DNA of 64,000 nt from Achromobacter xylosoxidans (lineage in GTDB: Bacteria; Pseudomonadota; Gammaproteobacteria; Burkholderiales; Burkholderiaceae_B), in the NCBI RefSeq assembly GCF_014490035.1, contig NZ_CP061008.1, positions 1,178,001-1,242,000 of the forward strand, written 5' to 3'. A program made the position numbers and the translations under genes. The notes under the pieces are model-generated. The model was not told the DNA's origin. It was given only the letters and a program-made list of their open reading frames with translations, and made no database searches. Positions 3,542 through 8,489 of the stretch are shown here, piece by piece. How positions within the stretch are numbered: the first letter of the stretch is position 1; every line of letters begins with the position of its first letter.

Positions 3542-3748
3542 TCAAGTCTGGTCGTTGTCGGCGCGCGCGTCGGCGCTGCCGTTCAGCGAGCTGGCCAGCG
3601 CGGGGGCTGTTTCGTCCGCCTGGCGCTGTTGCTCCGTGCGCCGCATCAGCCGCTTGCTCACCATGGCGGCGACGAAGGCATTGCGTTGGGCCGCGTCGTA
3701 ACCAGGGTGGCTGAGTTCGCGTACGTATTCGTTGATCACGGGTTTCAT
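3542..3748 (-). CDS. Small protein of the sheath-ATPase operon, unknown function
   Basis: This 68-residue protein begins MKPVINEYVRELSHPGYDAA. Its first half is predicted helical and ends in a basic patch (SKRLMRRTEQQRQ). The second half is polar, alanine-rich and probably disordered. Its ATG overlaps the stop codon of the degenerate AAA ATPase (ATGA), exactly as the ATPase start overlaps the sheath stop, so all three are made from one message. I know no family for it. By position it could be an accessory or adaptor of the sheath/ATPase pair. There is no signal peptide and no transmembrane segment. Confidence 0.68.
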   Translation of the reverse strand: MKPVINEYVRELSHPGYDAAQRNAFVAAMVSKRLMRRTEQQRQADETAPALASSLNGSADARADNDQT

Positions 3749-4326
3749 GGATGTTCTCTCGTCTTGAGGCCAGGCAGGGGCCGGGCGTGTGGGCTTGGGT
3801 CGGCGCGGACGGCTTGCAGCAGGCGCGCCATGGTGACTTCGGCGCCGGTGTCGGCGGTAGGGAACGCGCGGCTCCAGCGGCGCGCGCGCTGATCCGGCGC
3901 GGCGGCCGGAAACTGGACCACAAGGCGCAGCCGCCTCAGGAATGCGCTGTCCAGGTTGGACTTCATGCTGGCGGCCCGCGACGCCAGGCCGCGGTACGAC
4001 TGCATGGGTTGCAGCAGGTAGCTGACCTCGATATTGGCGTAGCGGTCATGGCTGTCCTTGACGTTCGTGCGCTTGCCGAAGAGGGCGTCGGCTTCGTCGA
4101 AGAACAGGACCGCGCCGCGCTGCTCGACCGACTCGAACAGGCGGTTCAGGTTTTCCTCGGTTTCGGCGATGTATTTGCTGACGATCCTGGACAGGTCGAT
4201 GCGATGCAGAGCCAGTCCCGTCTCGCGCGCCAGTTCCCCGGCAGCCTCGAGCGCCTGCGCCCGCGGGCTGTGCTGGGCGCCGGTGTCCCAAAACGCGAGG
4301 ATGCGCGGTTCCGCGAGCGGGTTCAT
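3745..4326 (-). CDS. Degenerate AAA+ ATPase of contractile-injection-system type (Walker A lost)
   Basis: The 193-residue product contains the core of the AAA+ protein found beside tail sheaths in extracellular contractile injection systems (Afp15 type). Residues 44-64 (RIDLSRIVSKYIAETEENLN and following), Walker B AVLFFDEADALFGKR (72-86), HDRYANIEVSYLLQ (93-106) and the paired arginines in DSAFLRRLRLVVQF (126-139) are all clear. Two catalytic parts are not: the P-loop region (residues about 19-26, HSPRAQAL) has no GxxxxGK[ST], and the sensor-1 Ala-Thr-Asn is Ala-Ala-Ser (118-120). The large N-terminal region of family members is absent. The frame is nevertheless intact and coupled by ATGA overlaps on both sides. 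It is either a pseudo-ATPase or a decaying remnant. Confidence 0.82.
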   Translation of the reverse strand: MNPLAEPRILAFWDTGAQHSPRAQALEAAGELARETGLALHRIDLSRIVSKYIAETEENLNRLFESVEQRGAVLFFDEADALFGKRTNVKDSHDRYANIEVSYLLQPMQSYRGLASRAASMKSNLDSAFLRRLRLVVQFPAAAPDQRARRWSRAFPTADTGAEVTMARLLQAVRADPSPHARPLPGLKTREHP

Positions 4327-5501
4327 GGCGGATTTCCTTCCATTTGTCCGGCTCGTTGCTGGACCCGGATGACCACGAATTCGGCCGGCTTGAGCGGAGC
4401 GAATCCCACCAGGATGTTGACCACGCCGCGATCCCTGTCCTGTTGCGTGGTGGTTTCGCCATCGCACTTGACCAGATAGGCATCGCGCGGCGTGCCGCCC
4501 TGGAAGGCGCCCTGGCGGAACAGCGCATTCATGAAGGCGCTGACGTTCATCCTGATCTGCGCCCAGAGCGGCTCGTCGTTGGACTCGAACGCGGCCCACT
4601 GCGTGCCGCGCAAGAGCGATTGTTCCAGGTGGAGCGCCAGGCGGCGCACCGGCACGTACTTGTATTCCGAGGCGAAATGGTCCGTGCCTTGAAGGGTCCG
4701 CGCGCCCCAGCAGACCGCGCCGCGTCCGGCAAAGGTGCGCAGGCAATTGACGCCCAGGGTATTCAGGTTGCGGCTCTCGTCGTCGCTCACTGCGGCGGCC
4801 AGCGACAGGACGCCAGCGAGGCCCGCGTCGATGCCGGCTGGCGCTTTCCAGACGCCGCGGTCGCCGTCGGTGCGCGCATACAGGCCCGCGATCGTGCCGC
4901 AAGGCGCGGTCAGGCGCGGCAGGCCGTTCTTCAGCGGGTCGGCCGCCCGGGTCCAGGGGAAATACAGCGCGGCATGATCGGATCTGGGCAGCGCCGCACC
5001 CATGACCGCGGCCGCCATGGAAGCCGCGTCGGCCGCCGCGGGCGGCGCATCGATGATCATGAAGGCGTGCCGCTCTTTGCAGTAGCACACGGCATCGGCC
5101 AGCACGATGCTGTGCGTGATGCCGGGCAGGCATAGCAGGTTGAAGGAATCGACATCGTCCAGCGCGTAGAGGCCCCGGCGCTGCGCGCGCTGGCTGATGA
5201 AAGTGGCATGCGCGTCCAGCGGATCGTTCCGCGCGGGTTGCGCCACGCGCACGACCCAGGCTCTGGCCCCGCCGTTCAGGAAGAACTGAAGCACCGCGTA
5301 GCCGAGTTCGCAGCCTTCGGCCAGCCCACCGAACTCGCGTTCGTAGTCGGCAAAGTCCTGGATGTGGACCGGCTGGTTGAGCGGTCCGCGCATGGCCGTC
5401 CCCAGGAAAGCGGCAACCGAGGTCGGCGCGCCGGCAATGGTGCGCACGCCTGCGGGAATTTCCTGGACATACACCCCGGGATGCGTCAGGGCAGGGACCA
5501 T
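4323..5501 (-). CDS. Phage tail sheath family protein (contractile injection system type)
   Basis: The 392-residue protein starts MVPALTHPGVYVQEIPAGVR, the hallmark N-terminus of tail sheath proteins of contractile phages and extracellular injection systems, followed by TSVAAFLGTAMRGPLNQP and ARAWVVRV. The C-terminal domain is equally typical: RRLALHLEQSLLRGTQWAAF (about 293-312), WAQIRMNVSAFMNALFRQGA and a final VNILVGFAPLKPAEFVVIRV strand, the part that forms the inter-subunit handshake. Length fits the short PVC/Afp sheaths. AAGGAG lies 7 nt before the ATG. No tube, baseplate, spike or terminator gene is nearby, so this is an isolated sheath, not a full particle operon. Confidence 0.92.
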   Translation of the reverse strand: MVPALTHPGVYVQEIPAGVRTIAGAPTSVAAFLGTAMRGPLNQPVHIQDFADYEREFGGLAEGCELGYAVLQFFLNGGARAWVVRVAQPARNDPLDAHATFISQRAQRRGLYALDDVDSFNLLCLPGITHSIVLADAVCYCKERHAFMIIDAPPAAADAASMAAAVMGAALPRSDHAALYFPWTRAADPLKNGLPRLTAPCGTIAGLYARTDGDRGVWKAPAGIDAGLAGVLSLAAAVSDDESRNLNTLGVNCLRTFAGRGAVCWGARTLQGTDHFASEYKYVPVRRLALHLEQSLLRGTQWAAFESNDEPLWAQIRMNVSAFMNALFRQGAFQGGTPRDAYLVKCDGETTTQQDRDRGVVNILVGFAPLKPAEFVVIRVQQRAGQMEGNPP

Positions 5502-5900
5502 GAACTGCTCCTTTCCACGGCGACTTGATGGCGTGAACTTGCAGCAGGAGAGTCTTCGCGGGACGGCCGAAGCGCCGCGGACAGAGAGCCGGGCGGGGGC
5601 GCGACACGCCGTAGCGCGCGGGCGTTTGGCGGGCGTTGCGCCGCGCTTCTAGTTGGATTGCAGCGGAAAGGCTATCGGGCAAAAGTAGCAGCCCTGGTGA
5701 GATGTTTTATAGAAGGTCTGATAAAAGCGGGCAATAGCTTTTCAGCGGTGTTAACGTTCTGTTGCTTATTCAGAAGCCGGCCCTTGCAGGACGCCTTGCA
5801 GAGAGGCCGGCCGAGGCTTGGCCCGTAGCGGCGGCGCTGCGGGAAATCAGAGTGGCCGAAGGCCGGAATGGCGGTCGCGGCCCTCAACGAGGAGCGCGAG
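5502..5900. other. Divergent intergenic region upstream of the sheath operon
   Basis: About 400 bp separate the sheath start from the secreted-protein start. The half nearest the sheath (5502-5650) is GC-rich, with no stop in one leftward frame, but that frame has no recognisable protein. The middle (5690-5770) is AT-rich and holds the promoter listed separately. The rest shows nothing I can name. No attachment site, direct repeat or tRNA remnant is visible. Confidence 0.5.
5706..5734 (-). promoter_or_regulatory. Predicted sigma-70 promoter for the sheath-ATPase operon
   Basis: Read on the minus strand, TTGCCC (at 5734-5729, four of six matches to TTGACA) is followed after exactly 17 bp by TATAAA (5711-5706, five of six). 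It points at the sheath gene and would give an untranslated leader of nearly 200 nt. This is the best-looking promoter in the gap. It is a sequence prediction only. Confidence 0.5.
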
Positions 5901-8489
5901 ATGTGTAGCCTGACCCGACTGTGGCGCATGCATGTTTTCCCGGCAACGTCGTCAGCGCCCGCGAGCCCGCCCGGGCGCCTGTCTCGCCTCGCTCTCGCTC
6001 TAGCCGTGGCCGGCATGGCTGCCGGCGCGGGCCTGACGCCGACCGGCGCGGCGCAAGCCCAGGGACAGACCCCGGCGCAAACCGCGCCCGCCCAATCCGA
6101 TGCCCAGGAAGAGGCCGCGCGTTCGCTGCAATGGCCGCGCAGTTTCGAGGCCGCCGACGGCACGCGGGTGGAACTCTATCAGCCGCAGATCGACACCTGG
6201 ACTGCCGACCGTATTACGGGCCGCATGGCGGTGGCGGTCGGCGCCGCCAAGGGCAATCCCACCTACGGCGTGGCAGACTTTTCCGCCCGTGCCGAGGTCA
6301 ACAAGCCGGCGGGCCTGGTGCATCTGTCGGACATCCGGATCGAACGCGTGCAGGTGCCCACCTCGCCGGAAGCCGCCGCCAAGCTGCGCAGCCAGCTTGA
6401 AGCGCGCCTGCCCGCCAAGGGCGTGGTCACGCGGCTTGATGCACTGCAACTGAGCTATACGCTGTCCCAGAACAACCCGGCCACGAAAACCGTCCCGGTG
6501 GACAACGCGCCGCCGCGCATCATCTACCGCACGGTGCCGACCGTGCTGGTGCTGATCGACGGCGAACCCGTTTTGGCGGAAGTGCCCGACGCGGCAGGCT
6601 GGCGCCGGGTGGTCAACACGCGCGCGCTCATGCTGGCGAACAACGCGGGCCGTTATTTCCTGCAGGCCGCCGGCCATTGGTACGAAGCGGGCAACGCCAC
6701 CGGGCCGTGGACGGATCTGCCGCAGCCGCCCGCCGCCCTGCTGGCCGCCGCCGACGCGGCGCGCCGCAAGACCGAACCGGACCCGATGCTGCCGCATGGC
6801 GGCAAGGCCCCGCACCGGGCGCCCGCCATCGCGGTGTCCACCGCGCCGGCCGAGTTGCTGGTGACCGTCGGCCAGCCTGAAATGCGGCCGGTGCCAGGGA
6901 CTTCGCTGCTGTCGGTGGCCAATGCCGATCACGCCCTGTTCATGAATCCGGGCGACAACCGCTACTACGTGCTGGTGTCCGGCCGCTGGTTCCGCGGCGC
7001 CAGCCTCGACGGTCCATGGTCCTACGTGCCGGGCAAGCAACTGCCGCGCGATTTCGCCCGGATTCCGTCCAAGGATCCACAGTCGGGCGTGCTGGCATCG
7101 GTGCCGGGCACGCCGCAGGCCAAGGAGGCGCTGATCGCCTCGACCATTCCGCAGACCGCCACGGTGTCGCGCAGCGCGGCGAAACTGCAGGTGGAGTATG
7201 CCGGCGGCTCCCCGACGCTGCGACCCATCGAGGGGACGGCGCTGTATTACGCCGCCAACTCGCAGGTGCCGGTGATACAGGCCGAAGGCCGCTACTACGC
7301 CTTGTCGCGTGCGGTCTGGTTCGTGGCCGATTCGCCCCTTGGCCCGTGGCGCGTGGCCGACCATGTGCCGGCGATCATCTACGCCATACCCGTCAGCTCG
7401 CCGCTGCACTACGTCACCTACGTGCAGGTGTACGGCTCCACCCCGCAGAGCGTGGTGTTTGGCTACACGCCAGGCTACATGGGCGTGGTGGCCAGTCCTG
7501 ACGGCACCGTGGTGTACGGCACGGGCTACGCGTATCCGCCGGTCATCGTGCAGGACACCTGGGTCGGCTATCCGCCCAGCTATGGCTACGACGCGGCTTT
7601 CGCCACCGCGACCGGTTTTGCCTTTGGCTTCGTCGCTGGCGAGACCTGGGGGGGCGCCGCGCCTTATTGGGGGCCTTATTGGGGGGCGCCTTATTGGGGC
7701 GGCGTCAACGTCAACCAGGTCGACGTCTATGGCGCTTGGGGCGGCTCCGGCGTGGTCACGCACGCGGCCGGCTGGAACGGCTGGACCGGCACCGAATGGC
7801 AAGGCACCCACGCCGAGGGCTACAACCCGCAGACCGGCGCAGCGTTCGAAGGCACGCGCGGCGCGGCCTACAACGAGTACACCGGCAATGCGGCTGCCGG
7901 GCGGCGCGATGCCTACACCAACCCGACAACGGGGGCATCGGGCGCCGGGCGCGCGGGCGTGGTCGCCAACGACGACGGCCAATGGGCTGCCGGCCGCCAG
8001 GACGTGCGCACCAACACGAACACCGGCCGCAGCACCATCTCTTCCGCCACGGCGACCGGCACGGCGGGCGACGGCGTCAGCAGCGTGGATCGGCGCGGCG
8101 CCACATACGACCGCAACACGAATAGCGGCATGGCGTGGAACAACGGCAATGTGTACGCGGACCACAACGGCAATGTCTACGAGCACAACGACAACGGCTG
8201 GCAACAGCACACGAGTTCGGGCTGGCAACCGGTGCAGCCCAGTGCGCAATCCGGCGGCAATTACCTGAACGGCCAGCGCCAGGCGCGCGACTATTCCGAC
8301 GACCGCATGGGCGGCGCGGAGGGCGGCGGCTGGCAGGATCGCGGAATGCAGGGCGGCGGTTGGCGCGACCGCGGCATGGGCGGCGCGGAAGGCGGCGGCT
8401 GGCAGGGCCGCGGCGGGGGTGGCCGGGGCGGCTGGGGCGGCTGGGGCGGCGGCTTCGGCGGATTCCACGGCGGAGGCTTCCGTCGCTGA
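5901..8489 (+). CDS. Large secreted protein with Tyr/Trp-Gly repeats and a Gly-rich tail
   Basis: ATG 5901 is chosen because GAGGAG lies just upstream; the product has 862 residues. An N-terminal hydrophobic segment (LSRLALALAVAGMAAGAGLT) followed by GAAQAQ suggests export. Residues about 60-480 contain repeated modules in which an ordinary segment ends in aromatic motifs such as GRYFLQAAGHWYEAGNATGPW, NRYYVLVSGRWFRGASLDGPW and GRYYALSRAVWFVADSPLGPW, so at least three related units of about 150 residues. A middle part has YWGPYWGAPYWGG. The C-terminal third has short Asn/Thr/Gly repeats and ends in a Gly/Trp/Arg-rich tail. Similar proteins in Burkholderiales are often loosely labelled carbohydrate-binding; I cannot confirm a function. 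Confidence 0.85.
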   Translation: MCSLTRLWRMHVFPATSSAPASPPGRLSRLALALAVAGMAAGAGLTPTGAAQAQGQTPAQTAPAQSDAQEEAARSLQWPRSFEAADGTRVELYQPQIDTWTADRITGRMAVAVGAAKGNPTYGVADFSARAEVNKPAGLVHLSDIRIERVQVPTSPEAAAKLRSQLEARLPAKGVVTRLDALQLSYTLSQNNPATKTVPVDNAPPRIIYRTVPTVLVLIDGEPVLAEVPDAAGWRRVVNTRALMLANNAGRYFLQAAGHWYEAGNATGPWTDLPQPPAALLAAADAARRKTEPDPMLPHGGKAPHRAPAIAVSTAPAELLVTVGQPEMRPVPGTSLLSVANADHALFMNPGDNRYYVLVSGRWFRGASLDGPWSYVPGKQLPRDFARIPSKDPQSGVLASVPGTPQAKEALIASTIPQTATVSRSAAKLQVEYAGGSPTLRPIEGTALYYAANSQVPVIQAEGRYYALSRAVWFVADSPLGPWRVADHVPAIIYAIPVSSPLHYVTYVQVYGSTPQSVVFGYTPGYMGVVASPDGTVVYGTGYAYPPVIVQDTWVGYPPSYGYDAAFATATGFAFGFVAGETWGGAAPYWGPYWGAPYWGGVNVNQVDVYGAWGGSGVVTHAAGWNGWTGTEWQGTHAEGYNPQTGAAFEGTRGAAYNEYTGNAAAGRRDAYTNPTTGASGAGRAGVVANDDGQWAAGRQDVRTNTNTGRSTISSATATGTAGDGVSSVDRRGATYDRNTNSGMAWNNGNVYADHNGNVYEHNDNGWQQHTSSGWQPVQPSAQSGGNYLNGQRQARDYSDDRMGGAEGGGWQDRGMQGGGWRDRGMGGAEGGGWQGRGGGGRGGWGGWGGGFGGFHGGGFRR
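8305..8413 (+). repeat. Imperfect 40-bp direct repeat in the Gly-rich tail
   Basis: Copies at 8305-8344 and 8374-8413 match at 37 of 40 positions and both encode MGGAEGGGWQ followed by a residue and RG. They lie 69 bp apart, so the unit keeps reading frame. This indicates recent duplication or slippage within the secreted-protein gene. Confidence 0.75.

Follow-up and report, generated by a model that had tools for sequence, protein, structure and literature searches.

Sheaths are the spring of phage tails, T6SS and eCIS, in which they act around a tube. What, then, does a sheath gene do in a short operon that has no particle genes beside it? The locus that raises this question lies in a stretch of 64,000 nucleotides (the 64-kb window) from the single-contig 6.76-Mb genome of Achromobacter xylosoxidans (G000). 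It consists of three overlapping genes on the minus strand, which encode a sheath, an AAA-type ATPase fragment and a protein of 68 residues. Coordinates, Pfam domains and an ATGA at both junctions bear out the initial annotation of these genes as real, the sheath/AAA and AAA/68-aa junctions each being a 4-nt overlap (Table 1). The operon is flanked by a divergent 873-aa gene and by a small gene of membrane-protein look, neither of which has a Pfam match.

Table 1. Features of the sheath locus; positions are counted from the first letter of the 64-kb window.
Feature	Position	Strand	Size or spacing	Basis
Sheath gene	4323..5501	-	392 aa	Pfam, gene tables, structure model with Foldseek, dN/dS
AAA fragment (fusion gene)	3745..4326	-	193 aa	Shuffling, alignments, full-cluster genes, dN/dS
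68-aa ORF	3542..3748	-	68 aa	Counterpart of the full-cluster gene after the ATPase gene
Conserved upstream element	5627..5772	-	146 bp	Sequence comparison, genus genomes
TTGCCC, inferred -35 hexamer in the element	5729..5734	-	17-nt spacer to TATAAA	Read from sequence
TATAAA, inferred -10 hexamer in the element	5706..5711	-		Read from sequence; TATAA invariant in 13 aligned genomes
AAGGAG, inferred ribosome binding site	5508..5513	-	6 nt before the sheath ATG	Read from sequence; AAGGAGCAG invariant in 13 aligned genomes

Both sheath domains scored above their curated Pfam cut-offs: Phage_sheath_1 (PF04984) at 2.5e-11 and 44.1 bits against 31.4, and Phage_sheath_1C (PF17482) at 3.3e-10 and 40.4 bits against 26.9. 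The gene had been described as a full-length sheath. It is complete in its core, but it encodes core domains only, and the insert of ~370 aa that follows residue ~91 in the 760-aa sheath of the nearest full-system relatives is missing. Given that the extra sheath domains of AlgoCIS are reported to face outward from the wall (PMC8894135), loss of the insert need not harm the sheath core. Short length as a sign of decay was considered and rejected, since a Paracoccus plasmid has a 384-aa sheath amid tail and baseplate genes. The structure model of the protein (pLDDT 84, pTM 0.86) found its best Foldseek match in the Streptomyces coelicolor CIS sheath; Pvc2 and Afp2 were also matched. Conservation was scored at 125 family positions that are at least 95% conserved among 88 long sheaths, these references having been picked by length. 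Sheaths of the window clade depart at 3-7 of these positions, against a leave-one-out baseline for the references of median 1, mean 2.6 and maximum 23. The departures number 9-13 in the 555-aa fusions described below and 9-15 in the second group of sheaths, except in P0010, where they number 4.

The statement that no tube, baseplate or spike lies alongside was upheld by tblastn of 17 eCIS proteins of relatives against the entire 64-kb window, which matched the three operon genes only; spike, gp25, PAAR and eCIS_core genes were not found there. The initial annotation had also proposed a search for particle genes elsewhere in the genome, and the tested parts are absent. The only PF04984 match in G000 is the window sheath, and neither the gp19-type tube (PF06841) nor the Pvc16-type cap (PF14065) was matched in this genome, with 4/4 full-cluster controls positive for each profile. 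The tube result is taken from this controlled PF06841 search, an own-genome search in which no control was positive not being used. Across the 43 genomes, the tube protein gave six full-length matches, none of them in G000, and the 1041-aa Baseplate J protein of G006 was matched in six genomes, again not in G000. The complete 647-aa ATPase aligned to G000 over positions 449-579 only (449-647 with gaps), apart from a distant AAA protein at 32% identity. Tube and cap profiles also gave no match in any of the 19 orphan or remnant genomes examined, which include all 11 genus genomes with a reduced locus, and were positive in 4/4 controls. Since the tested defining parts (tube, Baseplate J protein, cap and complete ATPase) are absent, the locus is not an eCIS.

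Relatives reveal where it came from. A sheath match was present in 24 of the 268 family genomes searched and in 17 of the 43 genomes of the genus. Six of the 43 (G003, G006, G014, G024, G032 and G037) carry a complete eCIS with a 760-aa sheath beside the same divergent gene; Pfam matches in these full clusters comprise gp19 tube, T4_baseplate, Pvc16, AAA with winged helix, eCIS_core, CIS_tube, Phage_base_V, gp25 and Baseplate_J, and a spike gene is carried as well. Because a complete eCIS occupies the same chromosomal site in these genomes, the operon is what deletions left, and gene content across the genus establishes the locus as a remnant of a complete eCIS. The reduced three-gene operon, which the initial annotation had suggested seeking in relatives, is present in seven Achromobacter genomes, its own included (G000, G001, G004, G009, G016, G041 and G042). 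Three more (G007, G022 and G039) have a short sheath with other remains, or none, downstream, and in G002 the locus is down to ~35 codons. No operon traces were seen in 15 of the 16 genomes that bear the LysE neighbour and have no sheath match, G033 being left out.

In a tree of 137 sheaths, from which the frameshifted sheath P0007 was excluded, the short Achromobacter-type sheaths formed one clade of 23 tips (ultrafast bootstrap 99), including three metagenomic or unnamed tips (P0010, P0028 and P0049). This clade joins the full-system Achromobacter sheaths (bootstrap 93), and the 555-aa fusions group apart in a clade of their own (100). Sheath and flank trees disagree in part, which counts against reading the locus as a domesticated remnant.

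The second gene had been called a truncated AAA gene. Its PF00004 match (5.4e-13) spans profile positions 16-130 only and does lack the Walker A end, but the gene is a deletion fusion, not a simple truncation. The N-terminal ~21 residues, beginning MNPLAEPRILAFWDTG, are the start of a T4_baseplate-type gene (0-1 of 1000 shuffles reached the score, in 15 comparisons), and the remainder is the D2 domain of a Pvc15-type ATPase from just past Walker A. A second deletion, of 33 aa, took the GGSIRN segment of the lid. The sensor-1 Asn is lost from the window's fusion and retained in G004 and in the relative P0136. Walker B (FDEADALFG, invariant in all 30 aligned sequences) is kept, as are the RR pair and the pore-loop segment. 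The Walker A motif GxxxxGKT was found in none of the 16 aligned Achromobacter fusion proteins (P0001, P0122-P0134, P0136 and P0137). The fusion falls into 16 database clusters (P0122-P0137), all of 195-196 aa except P0135, with 185; one 90% cluster of the protein extends over 164 contigs. A structure model of the fusion was set aside as too poor (pLDDT 46).

In full clusters, the ATPase gene is followed by a gene of 80-85 aa, and the 68-aa protein is its counterpart, with the first ~45 residues best conserved; the 68-aa protein descends from an 80-residue protein of the eCIS locus. It has 41 database relatives, and the NCBI names among them are all Achromobacter. The 4-nt overlap between the ATPase gene and the small gene was found in six of six full clusters. 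The AAA/68-aa overlap is thus inherited and is no evidence of new coupling.

The element upstream of the sheath is also older than the reduction. Between full and reduced species it is 87% identical, compared with 65% at sheath fourfold sites and 50-60% in its own flanks. It is single-copy in 14 of the 43 genus genomes (six full, seven reduced and, in part, G039) and was detected neither in any sheath-less genome among the 43 nor in G022, G007 or G002. By its distribution and conservation, the element is inherited from the eCIS and kept in most sheath-keeping Achromobacter. An Rfam search of the upstream region gave no match, and a consensus promoter scan under a stricter rule called none, TTGCCC-N17-TATAAA being a reading by eye.

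Selection was measured as dN/dS (omega) with our own one-omega codon model (F3x4) over the seven reduced species. The sheath gave an omega of 0.14-0.15 (LRT against 1, 479-486) and the 68-aa gene 0.23 (0.146 in its first 45 codons). The AAA gene gave 0.21-0.22, with that of G004 trimmed to the aligned first 147-153 codons and the stop codon in that of G042 masked. Shifted-frame controls of the sheath, run with G004 left out, gave 2.4 and 3.4. For comparison, neighbour genes gave 0.049 and 0.013, and the full-system sheath, tube and AAA genes gave 0.027, 0.014 and 0.073, respectively; the tube value was obtained without G032, where the gene is split over two stretches. In a joint fit, sheath omega was 0.018 in full systems, 0.39 on the stem and 0.138 in the window clade (LRT 541), constraint in the reduced sheath being ~8-fold weaker than in full systems (0.14 versus a core value of 0.018). 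The group of G039, G022 and G007 gave 0.19 (LRT 207), with 0.12 for G022 (LRT 64), which has a sheath and no ATPase piece, and 0.24 for G007 (LRT 34). These codon comparisons make it well supported that the sheath is kept by purifying selection. The initial annotation had favoured selection and had weighed two readings, domestication as a mini-system against a remnant that survived by chance. A remnant it is, derived from the complete eCIS that relatives carry at this site, but chance does not account for its sheath.

It is the sheath, rather than the three-gene set, that is favoured as the conserved unit. The possibility had been raised that the genes are broken in most relatives. For the sheath this does not hold, since 10 of the 11 reduced loci in the genus (own genome counted) keep its frame intact, but the AAA gene is broken, swapped for a different fusion or missing in five of the ten sheath-keeping genomes. 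Tight coupling, to which the initial annotation had appealed, is therefore a weak sign of selection. Interruptions of the AAA gene occur in G042 and G004; intact near copies of both genes in the database (P0130 and P0136) make the two look local, which speaks slightly for domestication. In G039 and G007, a separate deletion fused the start of the tube gene to a shorter D2 piece. AAA omega cannot be told from 1 on the G000, G016 and G042 branches and is clearly below 1 on those of G041, G009 and G004; with G004 left out, ~9 stop-creating changes would be expected in a neutral AAA piece by our estimate and one was seen. The ATPase fragment is accordingly less secure than the sheath as a selected part, as far as codon changes can tell. 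Stop codons in the G022 and G007 sheaths were considered as disruptions and rejected, the match overrunning the normal stop at residue 375.

Sheaths stripped of their particle also occur outside the Achromobacter clade. In a genus of another family (g84), 15 of 163 genomes had a sheath match, and 13 of these were read (G698 and G807 being left out). Seven species keep a lone sheath of 392-430 codons, with uncertain starts, flanked on one side by an ABC-transporter pair and on the other by a recD-recB-recC-like operon (gene names from sequence reading); no other eCIS gene was found in 19.5 kb. Omega over these seven sheaths was 0.27 (LRT 384). The N-arm is missing in two of them, and six have a Lys/Arg-rich tail from which acidic residues are absent. 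Sequence conservation of the basic tail was dropped and its composition kept, the tail giving an omega of 3.06 (LRT 12.3 against 1, on an uncertain alignment). In a single genome, G405, a 201-aa D2 piece that has neither Walker A nor lid shares a two-gene operon with a 542-aa sheath, and the two genes overlap by 4 nt when the earliest possible start is taken; other eCIS genes were not found in 19.5 kb. In six proteins of 553-559 aa (the 555-aa fusions), a sheath and a D2 piece are joined in one chain, the D2 piece again having neither Walker A nor lid; pairwise identities are 84% for the sheath and 74% for the D2 piece, and a search of 398 genomes of the phylum gave no match across both parts. 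P0010, which branches at the base of the Achromobacter short-sheath clade, is a 605-aa fusion with a defective Walker A (GDSDTGKA) and no lid. A frameshifted sheath occupies one database cluster, P0007. Viral contigs gave no match when searched with P0010; searched with P0069, they gave 28 loci at identities of 30-54%.

The g84 lone sheaths, G405, the 555-aa fusions and P0010 indicate that lone sheaths, and sheaths with a dead D2 domain, arose more than once. Going by domain content, the combination of a sheath with an ATPase piece lacking Walker A and lid recurs in two unrelated settings. It is possible, and we put it forward tentatively, that orphan sheaths are a recurrent domesticated class in unrelated bacteria, in which the sheath core outlived the particle, in many cases beside an ATP-dead D2, and forms a small cytoplasmic assembly whose role lies outside injection.

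For the locus itself, we lean with modest confidence towards a domesticated eCIS remnant, the sheath core of which is kept by selection for a new role, perhaps as a tube-less polymer. An ancestor carried the complete eCIS that relatives still have at the site. Comparison with them shows that deletions trimmed the insert from the sheath and eliminated the tube, baseplate, cap and spike genes together with most of the ATPase gene. As the sequences show, the window clade has since kept the sheath core under purifying selection, along with the original upstream element, the ATPase piece without Walker A or lid and the small protein. Tail sheath proteins are known to self-associate, and self-assembly is the simplest inference for a sheath without a tube. 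Subunits may thus associate in the cytoplasm, and the assembly may serve a new cellular role, for which a regulated cytoplasmic scaffold is our best guess. Because Walker A is missing, the ATPase piece could at most bind; it would not be expected to hydrolyze ATP and might serve the sheath as binding partner or cap. Of the two, the sheath would be essential and the ATPase piece an accessory that can be lost. The ~8-fold weaker constraint on the sheath, the AAA interruptions and losses, the AAA branches near neutrality, the reduction in G002, the frameshifted P0007 and the lack of the element in G022 and G007 count against domestication.

The new role might instead be that of a neofunctionalised monomer, the sheath fold acting as an adaptor or binding protein in soluble, non-polymerising form. 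The N-arm is relaxed in the window clade, at an omega of 0.324 against 0.032 in full systems (~10-fold weaker constraint), and this counts against an intact handshake lattice, which does not predict such relaxation. The N-arm losses and the basic tails of the g84 sheaths also fit a monomer. Against it, the C-terminal arm (14 codons) is the tightest of ten sheath regions in the window clade, at 0.023, and a tight C-arm with a relaxed N-arm would fit self-assembly. In the G039/G022/G007 group the pattern is reversed, the N-arm being constrained at 0.144 and the C-arm standing at 0.212. Because the patterns in the two orphan groups are opposite, the arms speak clearly neither for nor against polymerisation, with the reversal weighing slightly against a polymer. 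Sheath proteins tend, however, to self-assemble, and gp053 of phage FV3 is reported to form tubes alone and to tolerate the loss of up to 25 N-terminal residues (PMC6357053). A monomeric role seems to us rather unlikely.

A second alternative is that the locus is a dying eCIS, its last frames intact for lack of time and its constraint left from before the loss of the particle. Such slow decay would fit the relaxation of omega relative to full systems and the stem value, the AAA genes broken or lost in half of the sheath-keeping genomes, the near-total loss in G002 and the bare site of G019, where the divergent gene directly adjoins the next flanking gene with no operon between. The terminal branches argue otherwise. 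All seven species have the insert deletion and the fusion junction in common, so that the simplest view places their branches after both events, and on every one of these branches sheath omega is low (0.07-0.17, LRT 12.6-104). Over the tree, we estimate that ~32 stop-creating changes would be expected in a neutral sheath, and none was seen. Within the reduced clade, the upstream element is 95% identical, against 76% at fourfold sites, and the local look of the two AAA interruptions likewise weighs against decay. For the sheath, these comparisons largely refute slow decay, which we regard as improbable for the locus.

That a leftover subunit co-assembles with, or blocks, the sheaths of incoming contractile phages or of other injection systems built in the same cell would fit the retained sheath-specific positions, and a subunit without tube and baseplate could conceivably poison another assembly, but this is very unlikely, as the genome has no second PF04984 sheath, the window sheath is far from solved phage, pyocin and related sheaths (10-25% identity, Foldseek), and particles that act from outside are not assembled in the target cell.

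On the preferred reading of a domesticated remnant, a selected sheath in genomes without a detectable tube gene suggests that a sheath can have a life of its own, and orphan sheaths offer natural, small and genetically tractable cases for testing a tube-free role. The recurrent D2 partner stripped of Walker A and lid points to a hydrolysis-independent, sheath-linked role of D2, which bears on what the eCIS ATPase may do beyond payload loading.

Literature on eCIS in Achromobacter or on orphan sheaths was not found in a search that covered few subscription journals, which is weak evidence of novelty. Among known systems, the locus resembles eCIS of the Afp/PVC kind in its sheath core and in the D2 domain of a Pvc15-type ATPase, and it shares its chromosomal site and upstream element with the full clusters of congeners. 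It differs in that tube, cap and the tested baseplate protein are absent genome-wide, that Walker A and most of the lid are gone from the ATPase piece and that the sheath lacks the insert of its full-system relatives. The kept fragment is the counterpart of D2 in Pvc15, which is reported to be the sole active ATPase domain of that protein, payload loading needing each domain (PMC11495950); unlike it, the fragment would not be expected to hydrolyze ATP. The Pvc2 and Afp2 sheath subunits (PDB 6j0b and 6rao; 355 and 354 aa) have a similar fold and size class and no large insert, but they surround a tube in a particle, whereas no tube gene was found here. The best structural matches, the S. coelicolor CIS sheath entries (PDB 8bky, 8bl4, 9gts and 9gtp; 35-39% identity, TM-score to the query 0.73-0.77), were likewise solved inside a particle with tube, cap and baseplate. 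Closest to the behavior proposed here are the tail polysheaths, which T4 gp18 is reported to form (PMC9230969) and which, with phage FV3 gp053 (PMC6357053), illustrate what a sheath does when the tube is missing. Those were formed by recombinant protein; the Achromobacter locus, known from its genes alone, would represent a natural tube-less state kept by selection.

The divergent neighbour gene, for which no Pfam match was found, adjoins the sheath gene both in the full loci, which carry a complete extracellular contractile injection system (eCIS), and in most of the reduced loci, and is under strong constraint, with a dN/dS of 0.049.

Locations of the neighbour gene and of a related operon
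Feature	Location	Description
Divergent neighbour gene, 873 aa	window 5868-8489	adjoins sheath
AAA D2 piece + sheath operon	L145:8233-10463 (G405)	two genes

Inspection of the database proteins revealed a frameshifted version of the 392-aa sheath (P0007; cluster of 49 member sequences, one contig entry), which was 95% identical to the window's sheath over 82% of the sequence. In seven species of a second genus (L168-L174, from G800, G746, G791, G738, G758, G693 and G721), the sheath gene was present alone, flanked by an ABC-transporter pair on one side and a recD-recB-recC-like operon on the other; a Lys/Arg-rich tail was observed at the sheath C terminus in six of these.

In the G405 operon, the D2 piece (last AAA domain of the Pvc15-type ATPase) lacks both Walker A and lid and is partnered by a 542-aa sheath; further eCIS genes were not found within 19.5 kb. 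One family of proteins of 553-559 aa (P0069, P0075, P0081, P0085, P0098 and P0105) combines an eCIS sheath with a degenerate D2 domain of the AAA type in a fusion, and the 544-aa protein P0055 carries sheath and gp19 tail-tube domains in a single chain.
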